Source of the DNA: Dactylosporangium siamense
Lineage (GTDB): Bacteria > Actinomycetota > Actinomycetes > Mycobacteriales > Micromonosporaceae
Direction of reading: 5' to 3'
Assembly (NCBI RefSeq): GCF_016862795.1
Contig: NZ_BONQ01000071.1
Coordinates: 1 to 64,000 of the forward strand
DNA length: 64,000 nt
The position numbers were made by a program, and so were the translations under genes. The notes under the pieces are model-generated. The model did no database searches and had not been told where the DNA came from. It saw only the letters and a list, made by a program, of their open reading frames with translations. Below are positions 34,203 to 61,753 of the stretch, piece after piece. The number at the start of each line of letters is the position of its first letter. Positions within the stretch are counted from its first letter, which is position 1.

Positions 34203-34331
34203 TGTGGATTACGAACAAGCAGCTCAGGGGCCATCTGTGGATCCCGGACGTGGAGTTATCCACAGGACTGTGCACAGCTGATCCCCCGTTTGTGGGCCGT
34301 GGTCCACAGGTTGTCCCGAGGGTTGTCCACC
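34203..34331. promoter_or_regulatory. DnaA-box cluster upstream of dnaB
   Basis: One perfect TTATCCACA (34256-34264) is flanked by one-mismatch boxes: TAATCCACA on the minus strand (34203-34211), TGGTCCACA (34300-34308) and TTGTCCACC (34323-34331). Looser matches lie at 34236-34244 and 34268-34276. An AT-richer patch (ACTATTTTTCG) precedes the cluster. It occupies the 319-base gap between a minus-strand gene and dnaB, so it could bind DnaA to control dnaB or to titrate DnaA. Confidence 0.72.
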
Positions 34332-34452
34332 GGCCGGTTTTGACGAACGCCTGCCGCTCCATACCGTTGCGCAGGGCGCCCCTGTTTTCAGAGCGGTTTT
34401 GTCATACCCGCGAGGTCTACTGGTTGGTGCGGGTATGACGTTGGAGGGGCGA

Positions 34453-37230
34453 GTGTCGATCACCGAAGACATACAGGGCGGCGACCCTTGGGACGACGCG
34501 ACCCCGGCCGAGCCGCGCCGGCAACCCCCCAAGGACCAGTCCAAGGGATCTGAGCGGCCCTCCGGCGGCGCCGAAACCTTCGAACGCACCCCACCGCAGG
34601 ACGTCGCCGCGGAGCAGAGCGTCCTCGGCGGCATGCTGCTGTCCAAGGACGCCATCGCCGACGTCGTCGAGATCCTCAAGTCCCACGACTTCTACCGGCC
34701 CAACCACACGGTCGTCTTCGACGCGATCCTCGACCTCTACGGCCGCGGCGAGCCCGCCGACGCCGTCACCGTCGCCGCCGCGCTGACCGACGCGGGCGAG
34801 ATCGCCAAGGTCGGCGGCGCCGCCTACCTGCACACCCTCATGGCGGCCGTGCCCACCGCCGCCAACGCGTCCTACTACGCCCGCATCGTCGCCGAGCGGG
34901 CCGTCCTGCGCCGGGTCATCGAAGCCGGCACCCGCATCGTCCAGCTCGGCTACGGCTCCGCCGGCCCCGGCGGCCGGGACGTCGACGACGTCGTCGACCT
35001 CGCCCAACAGGCCATCTACGACGTCACCGAGAAGCGCGTCAGCGAGGACTTCGCCATCCTCGCCGAAATGCTGCAGCCGACCCTCGACGAGATCGAAGCC
35101 GTCGGCGCCCAAGGCGGCGTCATGACCGGCGTCCCCACCGGCTTCAGCGACCTCGACCGCCTGCTCAACGGCCTGCACCCCGGCCAGCTGGTCATCGTTG
35201 CCGGTCGACCTGGGTTGGGCAAGGCCCTGGCGCTCAACACGCCACTGCCGACGCCCGACGGCTGGACAACGATGGGCGAGGTCAAGGCGGGTGACCAGCT
35301 GCTCGACGCCGCCGGCCGGCCGACGACCGTCGTCAACGCGTTCGACGTGCTGCACGATCGCCCCTGCTTCGAGGTGGAGTTCTCCGACGGCAGCGTGATC
35401 GTCGCCGACGCCGAACATCTCTGGAAGACCACAACGAGAGCTGCCCGACGACAGCGCTCCGAGACCACACAGTCACCGCAATGGCCCGCCGCGGCGCGCA
35501 ACCAGGTGGCATCGGTGCTGGCTCATTCCACGACGCAGCGAGACTCGCTGGTGACCTTCGGCGAGGCAGTTCAGCTCGTCGGACCCGAATTCCGGCATGT
35601 GCTCCACGTTGTGGGCAGCGAGGTCGGAACGTCGGGTCAGGTCGTCCGCGAGTATCAGCGAGCGGGCAAGTCATGGCGGCGTTCAATTCAGGCCTATTCC
35701 ACGCACGCGCTGCTCACGACGCTGCACCGGCGGCTCAACAGAACCATGAACGCCGAGACGACCGCCAGGCACGAGGGCGTCGTGACCACCAAGGACATTG
35801 CGAACACCCTCCGGCATCCGACAGACGGCCGCCTCAACCACGCCGTAGAAAATTGCCGCGCGCTGCAGCTGCCGGAGCGTGATCTGCTCGTGCCGCCCTA
35901 CACTCTCGGTGCGTGGCTGGGAGATGGCCACTCCGCGGCCGGCCGCATCACCACAGCCGACCCTCAGATCGTTGCCAACATCGCCGATGACGGATTCGAG
36001 ATCAGGCCGAGCTCCGCGCACCCGATGCTGTATGGCATCGGCCGCTCAGGCGAGCGGGGACCCGCACTGGTCAGCAGCCTTCGGGTGCTCGGCGTTCTCA
36101 ACAACAAGCACATTCCATCCGTGTATCTGCGCGGTTCGGAGCGGCAACGACGAGCGCTGCTCGCCGGCCTGCTGGACACCGACGGCACCGTGACGAGCAC
36201 TGGCAACGCGCAGTTCACGTCCACCTCGGCGCGGCTCGCGGGTGACGTACGCGAACTGGTCGTCAGCCTCGGATACCGGTGCACGGTGACGATCAAGCAG
36301 GTAAAAGGCCGTACTCCGGCCAGTTCGATCGCCTACACGTTGAACTTCACCACGGTCGACGACCTGTTCCGGTTGGAGCGGAAGCGGTCCGCGCATCAGG
36401 ACCGGCGGCGCAGCCTCAGCACGTCGAGGACCGGTGCCAGGTACATCGTCGATGTCAGACCCACTGCAAGCGTCCCGGTCCGGTGCGTGCAGGTCGACAA
36501 CGACGCCCACCTCTACCTGGCAGGGCGCTCAATGATCCCGACCCACAACTCCACCGCCGCAATGGACTTCAGCCGGGCGGCGTCGGTGAAGCACAACATG
36601 GCGAGCGCGATCTTCAGTCTGGAAATGTCGAAGGTCGAGATCGTCATGCGACTGCTCTCGGCCGAGGCTCGGGTGCCGCTGCACGTGCTGCGGTCCGGGC
36701 AGCTGTCCGACGACGACTGGACCAAGCTGGCCCGCAGGATGGGCGAGATCAGCGAGGCGCCCCTGTTCGTCGACGACACGCCGAACATGAACCTCATGGA
36801 GATCCGGGCCAAGGCGCGGCGGCTCAAGCAGCGGCACGACCTGAAGCTGATCATCGTCGACTATCTGCAGCTGATGACGAGCCCGAAGCGGACCGAGAGC
36901 CGGCAGCAGGAGGTCGCCGACCTGTCGCGTGGTCTGAAGCTGCTGGCGAAAGAGGTCGAGTGCCCGGTAGTCGCGGTCAGCCAGCTGAACCGTGGCCCGG
37001 AGCAGCGCACCGACAAGCGACCGCAGCTGTCCGACCTTCGTGAGTCGGGCTCGATCGAGCAGGACGCCGACGTCGTCATTCTTCTGCACCGTGACGACTA
37101 CTACGACAAGGAATCCCCGCGCGCCGGTGAGGCCGACTTCATCGTGGCCAAGCACCGAAACGGCCCGACCGACACGATCACGGTCGCCGCACAGCTGCAC
37201 CTGTCGCGCTTCGTCGACATGGCCATCTGA
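34453..37230 (+). CDS. dnaB: replicative DNA helicase DnaB with intein
   Basis: The precursor has 925 residues: 257 N-extein, a 442-residue intein and 226 C-extein. The spliced helicase would be 483 residues, the normal size. It is the hexameric helicase that opens the replication fork. The N-extein holds the DnaB N-terminal domain ('PPQDVAAEQSVLGGMLLS') and the RecA-like domain up to 'GRPGLGK'. The C-extein resumes with 'STAAMDFSR' and includes 'LIIVDYLQLM' (Walker B) and 'SDLRESGSIEQDADVVILLHR'. The insertion splits the Walker A lysine from the next serine, so unspliced protein cannot bind ATP. The GTG at 34453 has GGAGGGG upstream; ATG 34435 and TTG 34399 lack a site. Confidence 0.96.
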   Translation: MSITEDIQGGDPWDDATPAEPRRQPPKDQSKGSERPSGGAETFERTPPQDVAAEQSVLGGMLLSKDAIADVVEILKSHDFYRPNHTVVFDAILDLYGRGEPADAVTVAAALTDAGEIAKVGGAAYLHTLMAAVPTAANASYYARIVAERAVLRRVIEAGTRIVQLGYGSAGPGGRDVDDVVDLAQQAIYDVTEKRVSEDFAILAEMLQPTLDEIEAVGAQGGVMTGVPTGFSDLDRLLNGLHPGQLVIVAGRPGLGKALALNTPLPTPDGWTTMGEVKAGDQLLDAAGRPTTVVNAFDVLHDRPCFEVEFSDGSVIVADAEHLWKTTTRAARRQRSETTQSPQWPAAARNQVASVLAHSTTQRDSLVTFGEAVQLVGPEFRHVLHVVGSEVGTSGQVVREYQRAGKSWRRSIQAYSTHALLTTLHRRLNRTMNAETTARHEGVVTTKDIANTLRHPTDGRLNHAVENCRALQLPERDLLVPPYTLGAWLGDGHSAAGRITTADPQIVANIADDGFEIRPSSAHPMLYGIGRSGERGPALVSSLRVLGVLNNKHIPSVYLRGSERQRRALLAGLLDTDGTVTSTGNAQFTSTSARLAGDVRELVVSLGYRCTVTIKQVKGRTPASSIAYTLNFTTVDDLFRLERKRSAHQDRRRSLSTSRTGARYIVDVRPTASVPVRCVQVDNDAHLYLAGRSMIPTHNSTAAMDFSRAASVKHNMASAIFSLEMSKVEIVMRLLSAEARVPLHVLRSGQLSDDDWTKLARRMGEISEAPLFVDDTPNMNLMEIRAKARRLKQRHDLKLIIVDYLQLMTSPKRTESRQQEVADLSRGLKLLAKEVECPVVAVSQLNRGPEQRTDKRPQLSDLRESGSIEQDADVVILLHRDDYYDKESPRAGEADFIVAKHRNGPTDTITVAAQLHLSRFVDMAI
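35224..36549 (+). mobile_element. class 3-like intein with LAGLIDADG endonuclease
   Basis: A 442-residue in-frame insertion in DnaB, between Lys and Ser of Walker A. Its first residue is Ala, not Cys or Ser, so the standard first step is impossible. It has the class 3 triad instead: Trp67 two residues after His65 in block B, Cys421 at the block F position normally held by Asp, and Thr440 in the final 'P-T-H-N' before the +1 Ser. Two dodecapeptide-like motifs, 'LGAWLGDGH' (228-236) and 'LAGLLDTDG' (313-321), with their acidic residues indicate an intact homing endonuclease. More A/T-ending codons appear here than in the exteins, consistent with acquisition by transfer. Confidence 0.9.
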
Positions 37231-57112: not shown

Positions 57113-60100
57113 TCAGATAAGGCGGAGCTGCCGATCCTTGGGCTTGCGGGGGGCCGCGGGACCGCGCCGCTCCAACAGCCCGGGGTCGATGGAGGACAGG
57201 AACGGCGTCGGTGCCATGTCGCGCTCCGACCCGTGCCGGAAGCGCGTCCGGCTGTGCGAAAGGAAGAGCCGGTCCTGCGCGCGGGTCAGCCCGACGAAGA
57301 ACAACCGGCGTTCCTCGGCGATGTCGTCCTCGGAGCGGCCCTGCGAGCCGGGCCGGCCCTGCGAGCCGGGCATCCGCAGCGGCAGCAGCCCGTCCTCGCA
57401 GCCGACCAGGAACACGACCGGAAACTCGAGCCCCTTCGACGCGTGCAGGGTCAGCAGCGTCACCCGGTCCGCACGCGGGTCCCAGCCGTCGACCTCGGCG
57501 CCGGTCGCGAGGGCGCCCAGGAACTCGTCCAGATCGCTTCCCGCCCGCAACGCCGGCGGCGTCATCAGCTCGACCGCGGTCCACACGTCGGCCTCGGTCA
57601 GCCCGATCACATCGCTGTCGAGCTGGCCGCAGCGCCCCGCGACGACCTGGCCGGCCAGCCGCACCCGGGCCGCGATAGACCCGCCGAGACCGGTCGCGAA
57701 GCGCAGCTCACGCGCGATGGCGGCGACGCCGGGCCGGTCCAGCAGCCGGTCGTGCGAGCGCTTCTGCACCGGCACGCCCGCCCGCGACAGCGCGTCGACG
57801 ATCGGCGCCGACTGTGCATCCGTGCGGTACAGCACCGCGATGTCGGAGAACGACATGGCCCCGATCGCCGCCCGGGAGTCGACCCGGTTGTCGTGCGAAC
57901 GGTGCGACAGGCCGCCGACCAGCTCGTCGACGGTGCGGACCACGAAGTCGGCCTCGTCGGCGACGGACATGGCCGGATACAGCCCGACCATCGGCGCTTC
58001 CAGGTCCAGCCGGGCCGGGTCGAGGCGCCGCCCCGGCACCAGGGTCGTCGGCGCGATGGCCTGCACGGCCGCGGCGAGGATCGGCGCCGACGAGCGGTAG
58101 TTGCGGGTGAGCCGCACGACCCGGGCGTCGATGTCCGGCGTGGAGAAGTCCACGGCGAAGCGCAGGAAGAACGAGACCTCGGCGCCGCGGAACGAGTAGA
58201 TCGCCTGGTCCGGGTCGCCGATCGCGCAGAGGTTGCCGCCCGGTGGGCACAGCAGGCGCAGCAGGTCGTACTGCACCGGGTCGACGTCCTGATACTCGTC
58301 GACGAAGATCCATTGCCAGCGGTCCCGGTAGCGGTCGACCAGCGCCGGCGACTCGGTGAGCAGCTGCACGCTGAGCGTCAGCAGCTCGTCGAGCGACACC
58401 ATGTCCCGCGCCCGCAACGCCTTCGCCAGGGCCTCGCGGGTCGACGGCTCCATCGCAGCGAGGGCCCGCCGGGCCTCGCGCTCCGACAGCGGATCGAGGG
58501 CCGCCAGCAGGTCGGCCTCCTCGGCGATGCGGAACTTCGGGGTCAGCCCGACCGCGGCGGCGTTCTCCCGCAGGATCGACAGCCCCAGCGCGTGGAACGT
58601 CGACACCGTCACCGCCTCGGTCACCGGCCCGAGCAGGCCCTCCAGCCGCTCCCGCAGCTCCTCCGCGGCCCGCCGAGTGAACGTGATCGCCAGGCACTCC
58701 TCCGGGTACACGTCCAGCTCGGCACACAGGTACGCGATGCGGTGCGTGAGCGTGCGGGTCTTGCCGGTGCCGGGGCCGGCCACGATCAGCAGCGGGCCGC
58801 CGGGCGCGGACGCCGCCACCCGCTGCAGCGCGTCGAGGCGGTCGAGCAGGCCCGTGCCGACCTCCTCCATCCCCGCCAGCATCGGCTCGAGCGGCTCATG
58901 CGGCGAGGCGGGCGCGGAGATCGGTGGGGGTGGCTCGGGCGACGAGGCGGGCGCGGGACGCCGGCGTTTCGCGGCGGGCTTGGGCGCCGACTCCGCCTTG
59001 CGCTGTTTCGGCAACTGCGGCATCGGTACGTCGAACAGCACGTCCTCCTGCACCCCGCGGGAGCGCAGCTCCTCCGGTGCGAAGAGCTTGATGATCCCGT
59101 ATTCGCCGTCGTAGCCGGGCGTGCGGTGCACCTCGCCGCGGCGCAACCGGGCGATGCCCTCGCCGAGCAGCTCGCCACCGGCGCGGGTGATCTCCTCGAC
59201 CGGGACCTCACGCAGGATCGCCAGCTCCGAGCCCAGCTCGGCGACCAGCGAGGTCAGCGCCGCGTCGACGGTCTTGGACTTCGGGCCGACACCGTGGATC
59301 TCGCCGAGGATCTCGTGCAGCTGGATCAGGTGGGTGACCTGGGGCGCGCCGGGCGGCACGTAGCCGTCGGCGCGGTCGGCGAGCTCCTCGACCCGGTGCA
59401 GCACGCCGACGGTGAGCGCCTTGCCGCAGACCGGGCACAGGCCCTCGGCGTCGCGGGTCTGGGCCGGGAGCCAGTTCACGTCGCAGGCGCGGTGCCCGTC
59501 GCCGTGGTACTTGCCCTCCTCGGGGAAGAACTCGATCGTGCCGGCGAGCCCGTCACCGGTGCGCAGCGCGTCGCGGACCTTGAAGTAGTCCAGCTCGCTG
59601 GTCAGCAGGGTCGCCTCGCGGGCCAGGGCCGGCGGGGAGTGCGCGTCGGAGTTGGAGACCAGCCGGTAGCGGTCCAGCGACGACACCCGCCAGTTCATCG
59701 CCGGGTCGGACGACAGGCCGGTCTCGACCGCGAAGATGTGCTCGGCCAGGTCGGCGTAACAGTCGGCGATCGCGTCGAAGCCCGACTTGGAGCCCAGCGC
59801 GGAGAACCACGGCGTCCAGATGTGCGCTGGGACCAGGAATCCGTCGGGGCTGGCCGTCAGCGTGATCTCGAGCAGGTCGCGCGAGTCGAGGCCGAGGATC
59901 GGCCGGCCGTCGGAGCCGAGGTTGCCGATCCGCCCCAGCGCGGTGTTGAACCGGGCGGCGGCCTCGAAGTCCGGCTGGTAGATCAGATGGTGCACCTTGC
60001 GGGTCCGGTCGTCGCGCTTGTAGATCGTGGAGATCTCCACCGACAGCATGAACCGGACCGGCGAACCCTCGGCGCCGTCGGACAGCCGGCCGGGCAGGCG

Positions 60101-60349
60101 GCGCAGGATGTCCGCCTCGCGGTCCGGGTGCAGGCGGAACAGGCCCGGCTCCGCCGGGACGAGCGCCTCACGCAGGTGGTCGTGCCAGGCCGGGTGGGTG
60201 AAGTCGCCGGTGCCGAGGAGCGTGATGCCCTTGCGCCGGGCCCACCAGGTGAGCGTCTCGATGCTGAGGTCGCGACTGCACGCCCGGGAGTACTTCGAGT
60301 GGATGTGCAGATCAGCGACGAACGAGTGGTCGGCGACGTTCGGAGGCAC
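57113..60349 (-). CDS. endonuclease Q-like / UvrD helicase fusion
   Basis: The protein of about 1078 residues joins two repair activities. Residues 1-430 form a PHP domain with metal ligands in 'ADLHIHSKYSRACSRDL', 'GTGDFTHPAWHDH', 'SVEIST', 'SNSDAH', a C-P-V-C zinc site and 'HGVGPKSKTVDAALTSLVAELGSELAIL', closely resembling endonuclease Q, which nicks DNA at deaminated or abasic bases. After a Pro/Ala linker the superfamily 1 helicase has Walker A 'AGPGTGKT' (524-531), 'DEYQDVDPVQYD', 'GDPDQAIYSFRGAE' and 'LTLHASKGLEFPVV'. GTG 60349 has AGGA six bases upstream; GTG 60364 is possible. Confidence 0.93.
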   Translation of the reverse strand: MPPNVADHSFVADLHIHSKYSRACSRDLSIETLTWWARRKGITLLGTGDFTHPAWHDHLREALVPAEPGLFRLHPDREADILRRLPGRLSDGAEGSPVRFMLSVEISTIYKRDDRTRKVHHLIYQPDFEAAARFNTALGRIGNLGSDGRPILGLDSRDLLEITLTASPDGFLVPAHIWTPWFSALGSKSGFDAIADCYADLAEHIFAVETGLSSDPAMNWRVSSLDRYRLVSNSDAHSPPALAREATLLTSELDYFKVRDALRTGDGLAGTIEFFPEEGKYHGDGHRACDVNWLPAQTRDAEGLCPVCGKALTVGVLHRVEELADRADGYVPPGAPQVTHLIQLHEILGEIHGVGPKSKTVDAALTSLVAELGSELAILREVPVEEITRAGGELLGEGIARLRRGEVHRTPGYDGEYGIIKLFAPEELRSRGVQEDVLFDVPMPQLPKQRKAESAPKPAAKRRRPAPASSPEPPPPISAPASPHEPLEPMLAGMEEVGTGLLDRLDALQRVAASAPGGPLLIVAGPGTGKTRTLTHRIAYLCAELDVYPEECLAITFTRRAAEELRERLEGLLGPVTEAVTVSTFHALGLSILRENAAAVGLTPKFRIAEEADLLAALDPLSEREARRALAAMEPSTREALAKALRARDMVSLDELLTLSVQLLTESPALVDRYRDRWQWIFVDEYQDVDPVQYDLLRLLCPPGGNLCAIGDPDQAIYSFRGAEVSFFLRFAVDFSTPDIDARVVRLTRNYRSSAPILAAAVQAIAPTTLVPGRRLDPARLDLEAPMVGLYPAMSVADEADFVVRTVDELVGGLSHRSHDNRVDSRAAIGAMSFSDIAVLYRTDAQSAPIVDALSRAGVPVQKRSHDRLLDRPGVAAIARELRFATGLGGSIAARVRLAGQVVAGRCGQLDSDVIGLTEADVWTAVELMTPPALRAGSDLDEFLGALATGAEVDGWDPRADRVTLLTLHASKGLEFPVVFLVGCEDGLLPLRMPGSQGRPGSQGRSEDDIAEERRLFFVGLTRAQDRLFLSHSRTRFRHGSERDMAPTPFLSSIDPGLLERRGPAAPRKPKDRQLRLI

Positions 60350-60385
60350 GCCGCATCCTGTCACACGCCCACCGGCCGTCGCCTG

Positions 60386-61753
60386 CTACGCGCCGCGCAG
60401 CTCAATGATCGAGATGTCAGGCGGCGCACCGAATCGCACCGGCGGCCCCCAGAAACCGGCGCCCCGCGTCACGTAGACCTGGGTGCCGTCGACCGTGCCG
60501 AGACCGGCCACCACCGGCGCCTCCAGGCCGACCAACAGGTTGAACGGCACCATCTGGCCGCCGTGGGTGTGCCCGGACAGCTGCAGGTCGACGCCGTGTT
60601 TCGCCGCGTCGTGCGCCTGCACCGGCTGGTGGGCGAGCAGCACGACCGGCCGGGACGCGTCACGACCGTCGAGCGCCTTGACGAAGTCGGGTCCGTCGCC
60701 GACGTCCTCGCCGGTCACGTCGTTGACCCCGGCGAGGTCCAGGCCCTGGACGTCGACGCGCTCGTTGCGCAGGACCCGGACACCCAGCGAGTTCACCTCG
60801 TCGATCCACTCCTGGTAGCCGGAGAAGTACTCATGGTTGCCGGTGACGAAGAAGCTGCCATGGCGCGCCCGCAGGTCCTGCAACGGCTCGGCGGCCGGGC
60901 CGAGCTCGGCGACCGAACCGTCGACCAGGTCGCCGACGATCGCCACCAGGTCCGCGTCGACCGAGTTGATCATCCGGACGATCCGCTCGGTGTGCGACCT
61001 GCCCAGCAGCGGCCCGAGGTGGATGTCGGACACCAGGGCGATCTTGAAGCCGGCCATGCTCGCGGGGAGCTTCGCCAGCCGGATCGGCACCCGCTTCAAC
61101 ACCGGCGCGCTCTTCGCCTGCCATGTGCCGATGCCGACGGCCGCCACGGACAGCGCCCCCGCCGTCGCGGCGAGGGACCGCCCGAGCAGCAGCCGGCGGG
61201 ACGGATCGAACCGGCCCTCCACCGCGGCCGGGGGCGGCTCCGACGAGGACCGGGCCGCCGCGACGGCGCTCCCGCCGTCCACGGCCACCGCGCCGTCCAC
61301 AGGATCCGCCGTGCCGGCCGCCCGGTTTTCCACAGCGCCGGCGGCCTCGTCCACAACCCCCTGCACAGGTCGGGTCCCTGTGTCCACAGGCAGCACGCCG
61401 TTGTCCACAGAGTTATCCACAGGCTGCACCGGCGTCCGCCGGGTCCAGCCGCGCAGCGCCAGTCGCGGCAGCTCCAGCAGCGCCAGCGTCACCAGCAGGT
61501 AGAACATCAGGGCCAACCACAGGAACCCGGGCCACGCCAGCACCGGCTGCGCGTGCAGCGGCAGCACCCGCGAACCGACCAGCGTCACCGGGATCAGCAC
61601 CCCGAGCAGCACCACGACCAGGGCGCCGACCCTGCGGCCGCGCCGCGTGGTCACCACGTCCTTGACGAGCCGTTTCCACAGATACCAGTGGATTCCGCCC
61701 ACGACGAGCAGCACGACGAGCAGCGCGATGATCAGGAAAAGCGCAGTGGACAC
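60386..61753 (-). CDS. membrane-anchored metallophosphoesterase
   Basis: The 455-residue protein has three N-terminal helices (about 4-25, 42-62, 73-98), a linker (about 105-190) made of 'PVDN', 'VVDE' and 'AVEN'-like units, a further hydrophobic segment, and a YkuE-type calcineurin-like phosphoesterase domain. Metal ligands are seen in 'LVSDIHLGP', 'VGDLVDG', 'GNHEYF' and 'LSGHTHGGQ'. It probably acts at the outer membrane face; the substrate is unknown. The linker DNA is unusual and carries a DnaA-box cluster. The GTG start lies four bases after moaD, so it is likely cotranscribed with moaA-moaD. Confidence 0.9.
   Translation of the reverse strand: MSTALFLIIALLVVLLVVGGIHWYLWKRLVKDVVTTRRGRRVGALVVVLLGVLIPVTLVGSRVLPLHAQPVLAWPGFLWLALMFYLLVTLALLELPRLALRGWTRRTPVQPVDNSVDNGVLPVDTGTRPVQGVVDEAAGAVENRAAGTADPVDGAVAVDGGSAVAAARSSSEPPPAAVEGRFDPSRRLLLGRSLAATAGALSVAAVGIGTWQAKSAPVLKRVPIRLAKLPASMAGFKIALVSDIHLGPLLGRSHTERIVRMINSVDADLVAIVGDLVDGSVAELGPAAEPLQDLRARHGSFFVTGNHEYFSGYQEWIDEVNSLGVRVLRNERVDVQGLDLAGVNDVTGEDVGDGPDFVKALDGRDASRPVVLLAHQPVQAHDAAKHGVDLQLSGHTHGGQMVPFNLLVGLEAPVVAGLGTVDGTQVYVTRGAGFWGPPVRFGAPPDISIIELRGA
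61293..61421 (+). promoter_or_regulatory. phased DnaA-box cluster inside a coding sequence
   Basis: Six same-direction nonamers end in CCACA: 61293 (CCGTCCACA), 61326 (TTTTCCACA), 61347 (TCGTCCACA), 61380 (GTGTCCACA), 61401 (TTGTCCACA, perfect actinobacterial box) and 61413 (TTATCCACA, perfect general box). Spacings are 33, 21, 33, 21 and 12 bases, close to whole helical turns. In the coding strand every box needs a codon ending in T before GTG (CCT, TCT, CCT, GTT, GCT, CCT), against the strong G/C-ending preference of the gene. Confidence 0.75.

Follow-up and report, generated by a model that had tools for sequence, protein, structure and literature searches.

A putative origin-proximal DnaA-box cluster in the codons of a drifting metallophosphoesterase linker of Dactylosporangium siamense

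DnaA is the protein that starts replication in bacteria, and the datA and DARS loci of Escherichia coli carry multiple DnaA boxes outside oriC. These loci are described as non-coding in the excerpt of PMC12371093 available to us, and review abstracts name IHF as the partner of datA and both IHF and Fis as partners of DARS2. The same source describes an excess of E. coli DnaA boxes close to oriC, which would serve as a reserve for titration (PMC12371093). In Bacillus subtilis, removal of all six of the oriC-proximal DnaA-box clusters (DBCs), which are proposed to hold free DnaA, leads to early initiation (Okumura 2012, as summarized in excerpts of PMC5295017 and PMC5742627); one review, likewise excerpted, doubts that these clusters matter much (PMC5295017). 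An actinobacterial example is the DnaA-box cluster of Streptomyces coelicolor, which is reported to lie close to oriC and to repress untimely initiation (Smulczyk-Krawczyszyn 2006, as summarized in excerpts of PMC5742627 and PMC4585315). DnaA sites also occur inside genes, since B. subtilis has intragenic regions, for example in rplB, codV, and yhcN, that bind DnaA in vitro (excerpt of PMC4447404).

Here we describe six putative NNNTCCACA DnaA boxes, all on the plus strand at 61293-61421, within a minus-strand coding sequence (60386-61753) of D. siamense. The window, that is, the whole 64,000-nucleotide stretch analyzed, is the first 64 kb of contig C71 (179,563 bases). The host gene encodes a metallophosphoesterase of 455 amino acids, which we take to be "YkuE-like" and in which an N-terminal membrane part is followed by a low-complexity linker (both read by eye) and then by the metallophosphoesterase domain (Pfam PF00149, Metallophos; E 4.6e-15, residues 236-398). 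The stretch coding for the linker that joins these two domains, placed by alignment with D. aurantiacum and by 30 orthologue peptides, covers approximately 61260-61441 on the minus strand, and the cluster lies about 110 to 150 codons into the gene. A UvrD-type helicase gene (57113-60364, minus strand) lies directly downstream on the same strand.

A sequence-only reading of this stretch had reported six nonamers in one direction with start spacings of 33-21-33-21-12, and rereading returned exactly these positions, spacings, and plus-strand orientation: CCGTCCACA (box 1, 61293-61301), TTTTCCACA (box 2, 61326-61334), TCGTCCACA (box 3, 61347-61355), GTGTCCACA (box 4, 61380-61388), TTGTCCACA (box 5, 61401-61409), and TTATCCACA (box 6, 61413-61421). 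A weaker box on the same strand, CCCTGCACA (61359-61367), has a TGCACA core, which is kept in D. aurantiacum (TGTGCA on the coding strand). Boxes 2 and 4 have less usual 5' triplets, while the triplet of box 1 also precedes TCCACA in the oriC of the genus, and box 3 was judged from the sequence and from the same comparison of triplets. With four species pooled, all six 5' triplets are found before TCCACA in the oriC regions of the genus, and two of the linker boxes read TTRTCCACA, so that the boxes are of the types that the genus uses in its own origin. Box 5 appears in a table of PMC4285127, available in excerpt, as the high-affinity sequence of S. coelicolor and Mycobacterium tuberculosis, and box 6 is identical in D. 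aurantiacum.

With six TCCACA cores in 129 bp plus one TGCACA, the locus qualifies as a group of at least three DnaA boxes outside oriC, as the multi-box datA and DARS loci also do. However, all linker boxes lie within the coding sequence 60386-61753, whereas those loci are described as non-coding, and the cluster is thus not datA or DARS proper. As far as the excerpted sources describe them, the B. subtilis DBCs are alike in grouping several DnaA boxes outside oriC but different in that the putative D. siamense cluster lies in a coding linker and is lineage-specific. The S. coelicolor cluster, compared here by its description, shares with it an actinobacterial host, a position near oriC, and the high-affinity box (excerpt of PMC4285127). 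The origin-proximal excess in E. coli is a statistical density along the chromosome, in contrast to a dense cluster with unusual codons, and the B. subtilis sites in rplB, codV, and yhcN are similarly placed inside genes but come with nothing on codon choice in the excerpt of PMC4447404. What sets the D. siamense cluster apart is hence that the element is spelled in codons. Among the literature matches listed we recognized no report of a DnaA-box cluster selected through codons, which is a weak negative, and the excerpt of PMC5835720 has nothing on such clusters.

The sequence-only reading had also pointed to the T-ending codons that precede GTG in the linker (CCT, TCT, CCT, CCT, GTT, GCT, and CCT) and had argued from them that selection acts on the DNA rather than on the peptide. 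These codons are present as listed, in a gene where T endings are rare overall (25 of 456 codons); the seven GTG codons are likewise there, but they are not strictly consecutive, as GGC GTG CTG stands between the second and the third. On contig C71 as a whole, the share of T-ending codons is 5.1% in 134 gene calls, which are crude (GC3-based) and make all codon tables and labels of location between genes approximate. When the linker was resampled with the codon usage of these 134 calls while preserving the peptide, 200,000 draws gave at most four TGTGGA, compared to the six observed (0, 1, 2, 3, and 4 occurrences in 177,046, 21,814, 1,111, 27, and 2 draws, respectively). The linker of D. aurantiacum, resampled with the codon table of D. 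siamense C71, has seven TGTGGA, and none of 100,000 draws reached four. Judged by the contig average, the 129 bases would hold 0.047 TCCACA instead of six. Valine before aspartate or glutamate is coded as T|GTG in six of seven cases in the linker, compared to 5 of 477 in the remaining gene calls on C71, and within the enzyme part Val-Asp is always written GTC GAC (5/5 in D. siamense and 4/4 in D. aurantiacum). Resampling thus fails to reproduce the cluster, which supports the argument for selection on the DNA and suggests that a flexible linker may have been recoded to hold DNA-level control sites.

Further support comes from the D. aurantiacum orthologue (84% identity), in which five TGTGGA and the TGTGCA are retained at aligned positions, while a part of the linker that cannot be aligned holds two additional boxes. 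The box core and the T at the wobble position are kept there while neighboring codons change: core bases are identical at 36 of 36 positions compared to 50 of 84 non-core aligned linker bases (Fisher 4e-7, on bases that are not independent and are partly constrained by the peptide), and third positions are kept at 12/12 in cores versus 19/28 in the rest of the linker alignment (P 0.025). The T-carrying codon of two boxes changed its residue yet kept the T, namely, CCT/GCT (Pro to Ala) and GTT/ACT (Val to Thr). For comparison, 464 of 1,090 T-ending codons are retained across 56 orthologous genes, 23% of four-fold sites differ, and in-gene TCCACA and permuted hexamers are kept in 10/18 and 544/896 cases, respectively, versus 5/6 of the aligned ones in the linker. 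Because in-gene hexamer conservation between the two species is already high, the survival of the linker boxes is not striking by count; it is ordinary when taken alone and is remarkable only because the remainder of the linker has drifted. That synonymous and even amino acid changes spare the box core makes it possible to test, codon by codon, for selection on an element of replication control.

Next, we compared orthologues more widely. Matches to the host protein, counting paralogues, exist in 130 of 151 genomes, and 30 orthologue loci, the D. siamense window among them, were fetched and read. More than one TCCACA within 150 bases occurs only in D. siamense and D. aurantiacum and at none of the other 28 of these 30 loci. 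The same two species have eight Val-Asp/Glu in the 75 residues before a conserved RRLLL-type motif, compared to zero to three at the other 28 loci. Five other Dactylosporangium orthologues keep the gene without the box cluster, with zero or one Val-Asp/Glu in each linker, and a cluster present in two of seven Dactylosporangium species is therefore dispensable. A Val-Asp peptide kept without boxes, the outcome that would speak against DNA-level selection, was not seen among the 30 orthologue loci. In the alignment sought by the sequence-only reading, D. aurantiacum keeps the cores and the T while the linker drifts, and across the loci the boxes and the Val-Asp peptide come and go together. Since both occur in the same two species only, the comparison cannot fully separate peptide from boxes, and part of the core conservation may reflect the Val-Asp peptide.

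The claim that the boxes lie on one face of the helix held up less well. Phasing is modest in D. siamense, where 105 of 20,000 random codon-spaced sets are at least as phased, and is not evident in D. aurantiacum (4,017 of 20,000). Strict helical phasing was discarded, and we regard the helical-face argument as weak.

A titration site would be expected close to the origin, and this expectation agrees with both the position of the host gene and the distribution of box clusters across the family. The oriC of D. siamense, located between dnaA and dnaN and holding 18 TCCACA boxes, is on another contig (C84), so that its proximity to the linker is given by synteny only: the start of C71 is placed about 14 kb from oriC by synteny with D. 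aurantiacum, and the host gene lies about 72 to 77 kb from oriC in five congeners that have both on one contig. In three complete congeners, 21 of 78, 23 of 57, and 27 of 62 exact TTRTCCACA fall within 350 kb of oriC (5.2, 4.8, and 3.6 expected), oriC itself being left out of the counts. Across 24 complete genomes from other Micromonosporaceae genera, a CTGTGGA triplet pattern matched 118 times compared to 8 for the reversed pattern. After merging, the distance from dnaA is no more than 20% of the half-chromosome for 54 of 61 clusters and larger for 7, with 23 within 2% (1.2 expected); here dnaA stood for the origin, matches within 3 kb of it were omitted, some chromosome sizes were rounded, and orthologous sites shared by related genomes are included, so that a P value overstates independence. 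Even so, the link of the triplet clusters to the origin is plain. Family-wide, the pattern is matched in 295 of 300 genomes, to which oriC itself contributes.

We consider it fairly probable that the linker carries a young, lineage-specific, origin-proximal DnaA-box cluster that acts as a titration site within a drifting linker. An alternative that we regard as rather unlikely is that local duplications multiplied a short Pro-Val-Asp codon unit (CCTGTGGAC) in a linker free of constraint, the likeness of this unit to DnaA boxes being incidental. Such slippage is compatible with the confinement of both boxes and Val-Asp-rich peptide to the same two species, with the 15-bp near-repeat in which the two extra D. 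aurantiacum boxes sit, and with a 12-bp unit of 1.9 copies that Tandem Repeats Finder reports at 61400-61422. In addition, TGTGGA-rich coding repeats without sign of DnaA function exist in other genes (e.g., at G006:C64 in D. aurantiacum and at G287:C56); the 15-bp coding repeats at G006:C64, with their GCC/GCG triplets, and several arrays elsewhere have the look of ordinary tandem repeats, a caution that arrays of TGTGGA may form for reasons unrelated to DnaA. However, no array reported by Tandem Repeats Finder spans more than the last two linker boxes, the sequence between the boxes is unrepeated and has diverged between the two species around unchanged cores, and box-like clusters throughout the family lie mostly near dnaA. 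Considerably less probable still is selection on the Val-Asp linker peptide itself, with T before GTG as a by-product of a codon-pair preference. While Val-Asp is kept in both species at four of six aligned box positions, with Val-Gln at the fifth and Val-Glu/Val-Asp at the sixth, a preference of this kind is contradicted by the 5 of 477 T|GTG cases elsewhere on C71, and the near absence of Val-Asp/Glu from this linker in the five other congeners likewise argues against a selected peptide.

Alternatively, DnaA bound at the linker might act as a transcription factor or roadblock that tunes the host gene or the downstream UvrD-type helicase gene rather than being titrated. DnaA is known as a transcription factor (excerpt of PMC4447404), and the boxes lie inside a gene with the helicase gene directly behind it; nevertheless, the position of the cluster so far into the gene with no evident promoter, as well as the five congeners that keep the gene without it, make this improbable. 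A second or cryptic replication origin, which the density of boxes might bring to mind, is hardly credible: the cluster is not beside dnaA or dnaN, and the AT-rich stretch needed for unwinding is missing, with at most 14 A/T per 30-mer in 61094-61621 versus 23 in oriC. An origin at the linker was accordingly disfavored.

Under the titration reading, the cluster would have arisen in a single lineage of Dactylosporangium, among the codons of the drifting metallophosphoesterase linker about 75 kb from oriC by synteny, where loose constraint on the peptide may have let T-ending codons become fixed. In line with what is proposed for the clusters of B. subtilis and Streptomyces (excerpts of PMC5742627, PMC4585315, and PMC5295017) and for the origin-proximal boxes of E. 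coli (PMC12371093), the boxes would then hold several DnaA molecules, and the early-replicated locus would double in copy soon after initiation, so that free DnaA would fall and re-initiation would be damped. What the sequences show are the boxes, their codon bias, the cores retained in D. aurantiacum, and the origin proximity of such boxes in the genus and family; that DnaA binds the linker, that this titrates it, and that titration is selected for are inferred. For the B. subtilis site in rplB, DnaA binding was detected in vitro but not in vivo, perhaps owing to transcription (excerpt of PMC4447404), and transcription through the host gene could likewise prevent DnaA from occupying the linker boxes. 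The origin and turnover of DnaA titration sites are poorly known, and synonymous recoding of the host gene would remove the sites while leaving the protein unchanged, allowing a clean experiment.

It is tempting to speculate that drifting low-complexity linkers near oriC have repeatedly been recruited in the Micromonosporaceae as landing pads for DnaA titration, with the box dictating the linker peptide (Pro-Val-Asp-Asn read one way and Tyr-Pro-Gln the other) and a replication-control element evolving in unrelated proteins and turning over between lineages. We hold this idea to be possible but doubtful. Boxes also occur in the coding sequence of an RDD-family protein (Pfam) of D. vinaceum, whose GYPQ linker, about 283 kb from oriC, holds six boxes, five TTATCCACA and one CTATCCACA, with TAT CCA CAG coding six of seven YPQ. 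Two boxes each occur in this linker in D. fulvum and D. roseum, about 305 to 311 kb from oriC, and none in the other four of the seven Dactylosporangium species. Resampling with the D. siamense C71 codon table gave at most three boxes in 100,000 draws; however, codon bias is weaker evidence here because A/T-ending codons are common in the N-terminal stretch of the RDD protein (0.21 to 0.35 in seven species, counting sequence upstream of the start). The metallophosphoesterase and RDD clusters fall in different species. A scan of 19 stretches from the genus, with L109, L114, and L125 left out, found 14 groups of at least three TCCACA, of which 10 are wholly outside the crude gene calls, 2 partly so, and 2 wholly inside, the latter being the RDD linker and the tandem repeat at G006:C64. 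Arrays resembling those of the linkers also occur outside the genus, where some are probably plain tandem repeats, and the generality of coding-linker clusters is a lead, not a result.

Several other sites came to light in these searches. In another genus, L156 (G051:C1:503776-503914) has nine box cores and L157 (G010:C1:2757540-2757615) has ten, usually at intervals of 12, 21, or 33 bp; they lie 502 and 259 kb from dnaA, respectively, in an SPQ/YPQ-rich long open frame whose putative protein has no Pfam match. On C71, the next densest separate TCCACA site has four cores at 34203-34331, just upstream of a DnaB helicase gene. It comprises TGTGGA at 34203 and 34236, TTATCCACA at 34256, TGGTCCACA at 34300, and a near-box at 34323, and D. 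aurantiacum has three of these four TCCACA unchanged. In the DnaB helicase frame (34399-37230, 943 amino acids; Pfam DnaB and DnaB_C), the N- and C-terminal DnaB domains are separated by a region that matches LAGLIDADG-type homing endonucleases, which suggests an intein. At L044 (G001:C1:34774-34817) and L053 (G004:C1:46836-46879), TTATCCACAGGAG is found a short way upstream of a biotin carboxylase start codon (gene called by Pfam on L044), with further boxes upstream, and two more congeners have a match similar to this site.

Closer to the origin, 15 of the 24 complete Micromonosporaceae genomes share a similar cluster, CTGTGGAyAACg(g)CTGTGGAAA...CTGTGGA, about 8 to 10 kb from dnaA, apparently a conserved origin-flanking DnaA site. 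A three-box cluster of one layout is present in all seven Dactylosporangium species compared (L031, L041, L054, L060, and three more) and lies about 1.06 to 1.22 Mb into three complete chromosomes of the genus, making it a candidate conserved DnaA site farther from oriC. Finally, pairs of exact DnaA boxes in the same direction and 18 bp apart recur in G004:C1 (1345868/1345886, 1350732/1350750, 1682332/1682350, 9151998/9152016, and 9387757/9387775), and similar pairs occur in G001 and G005.
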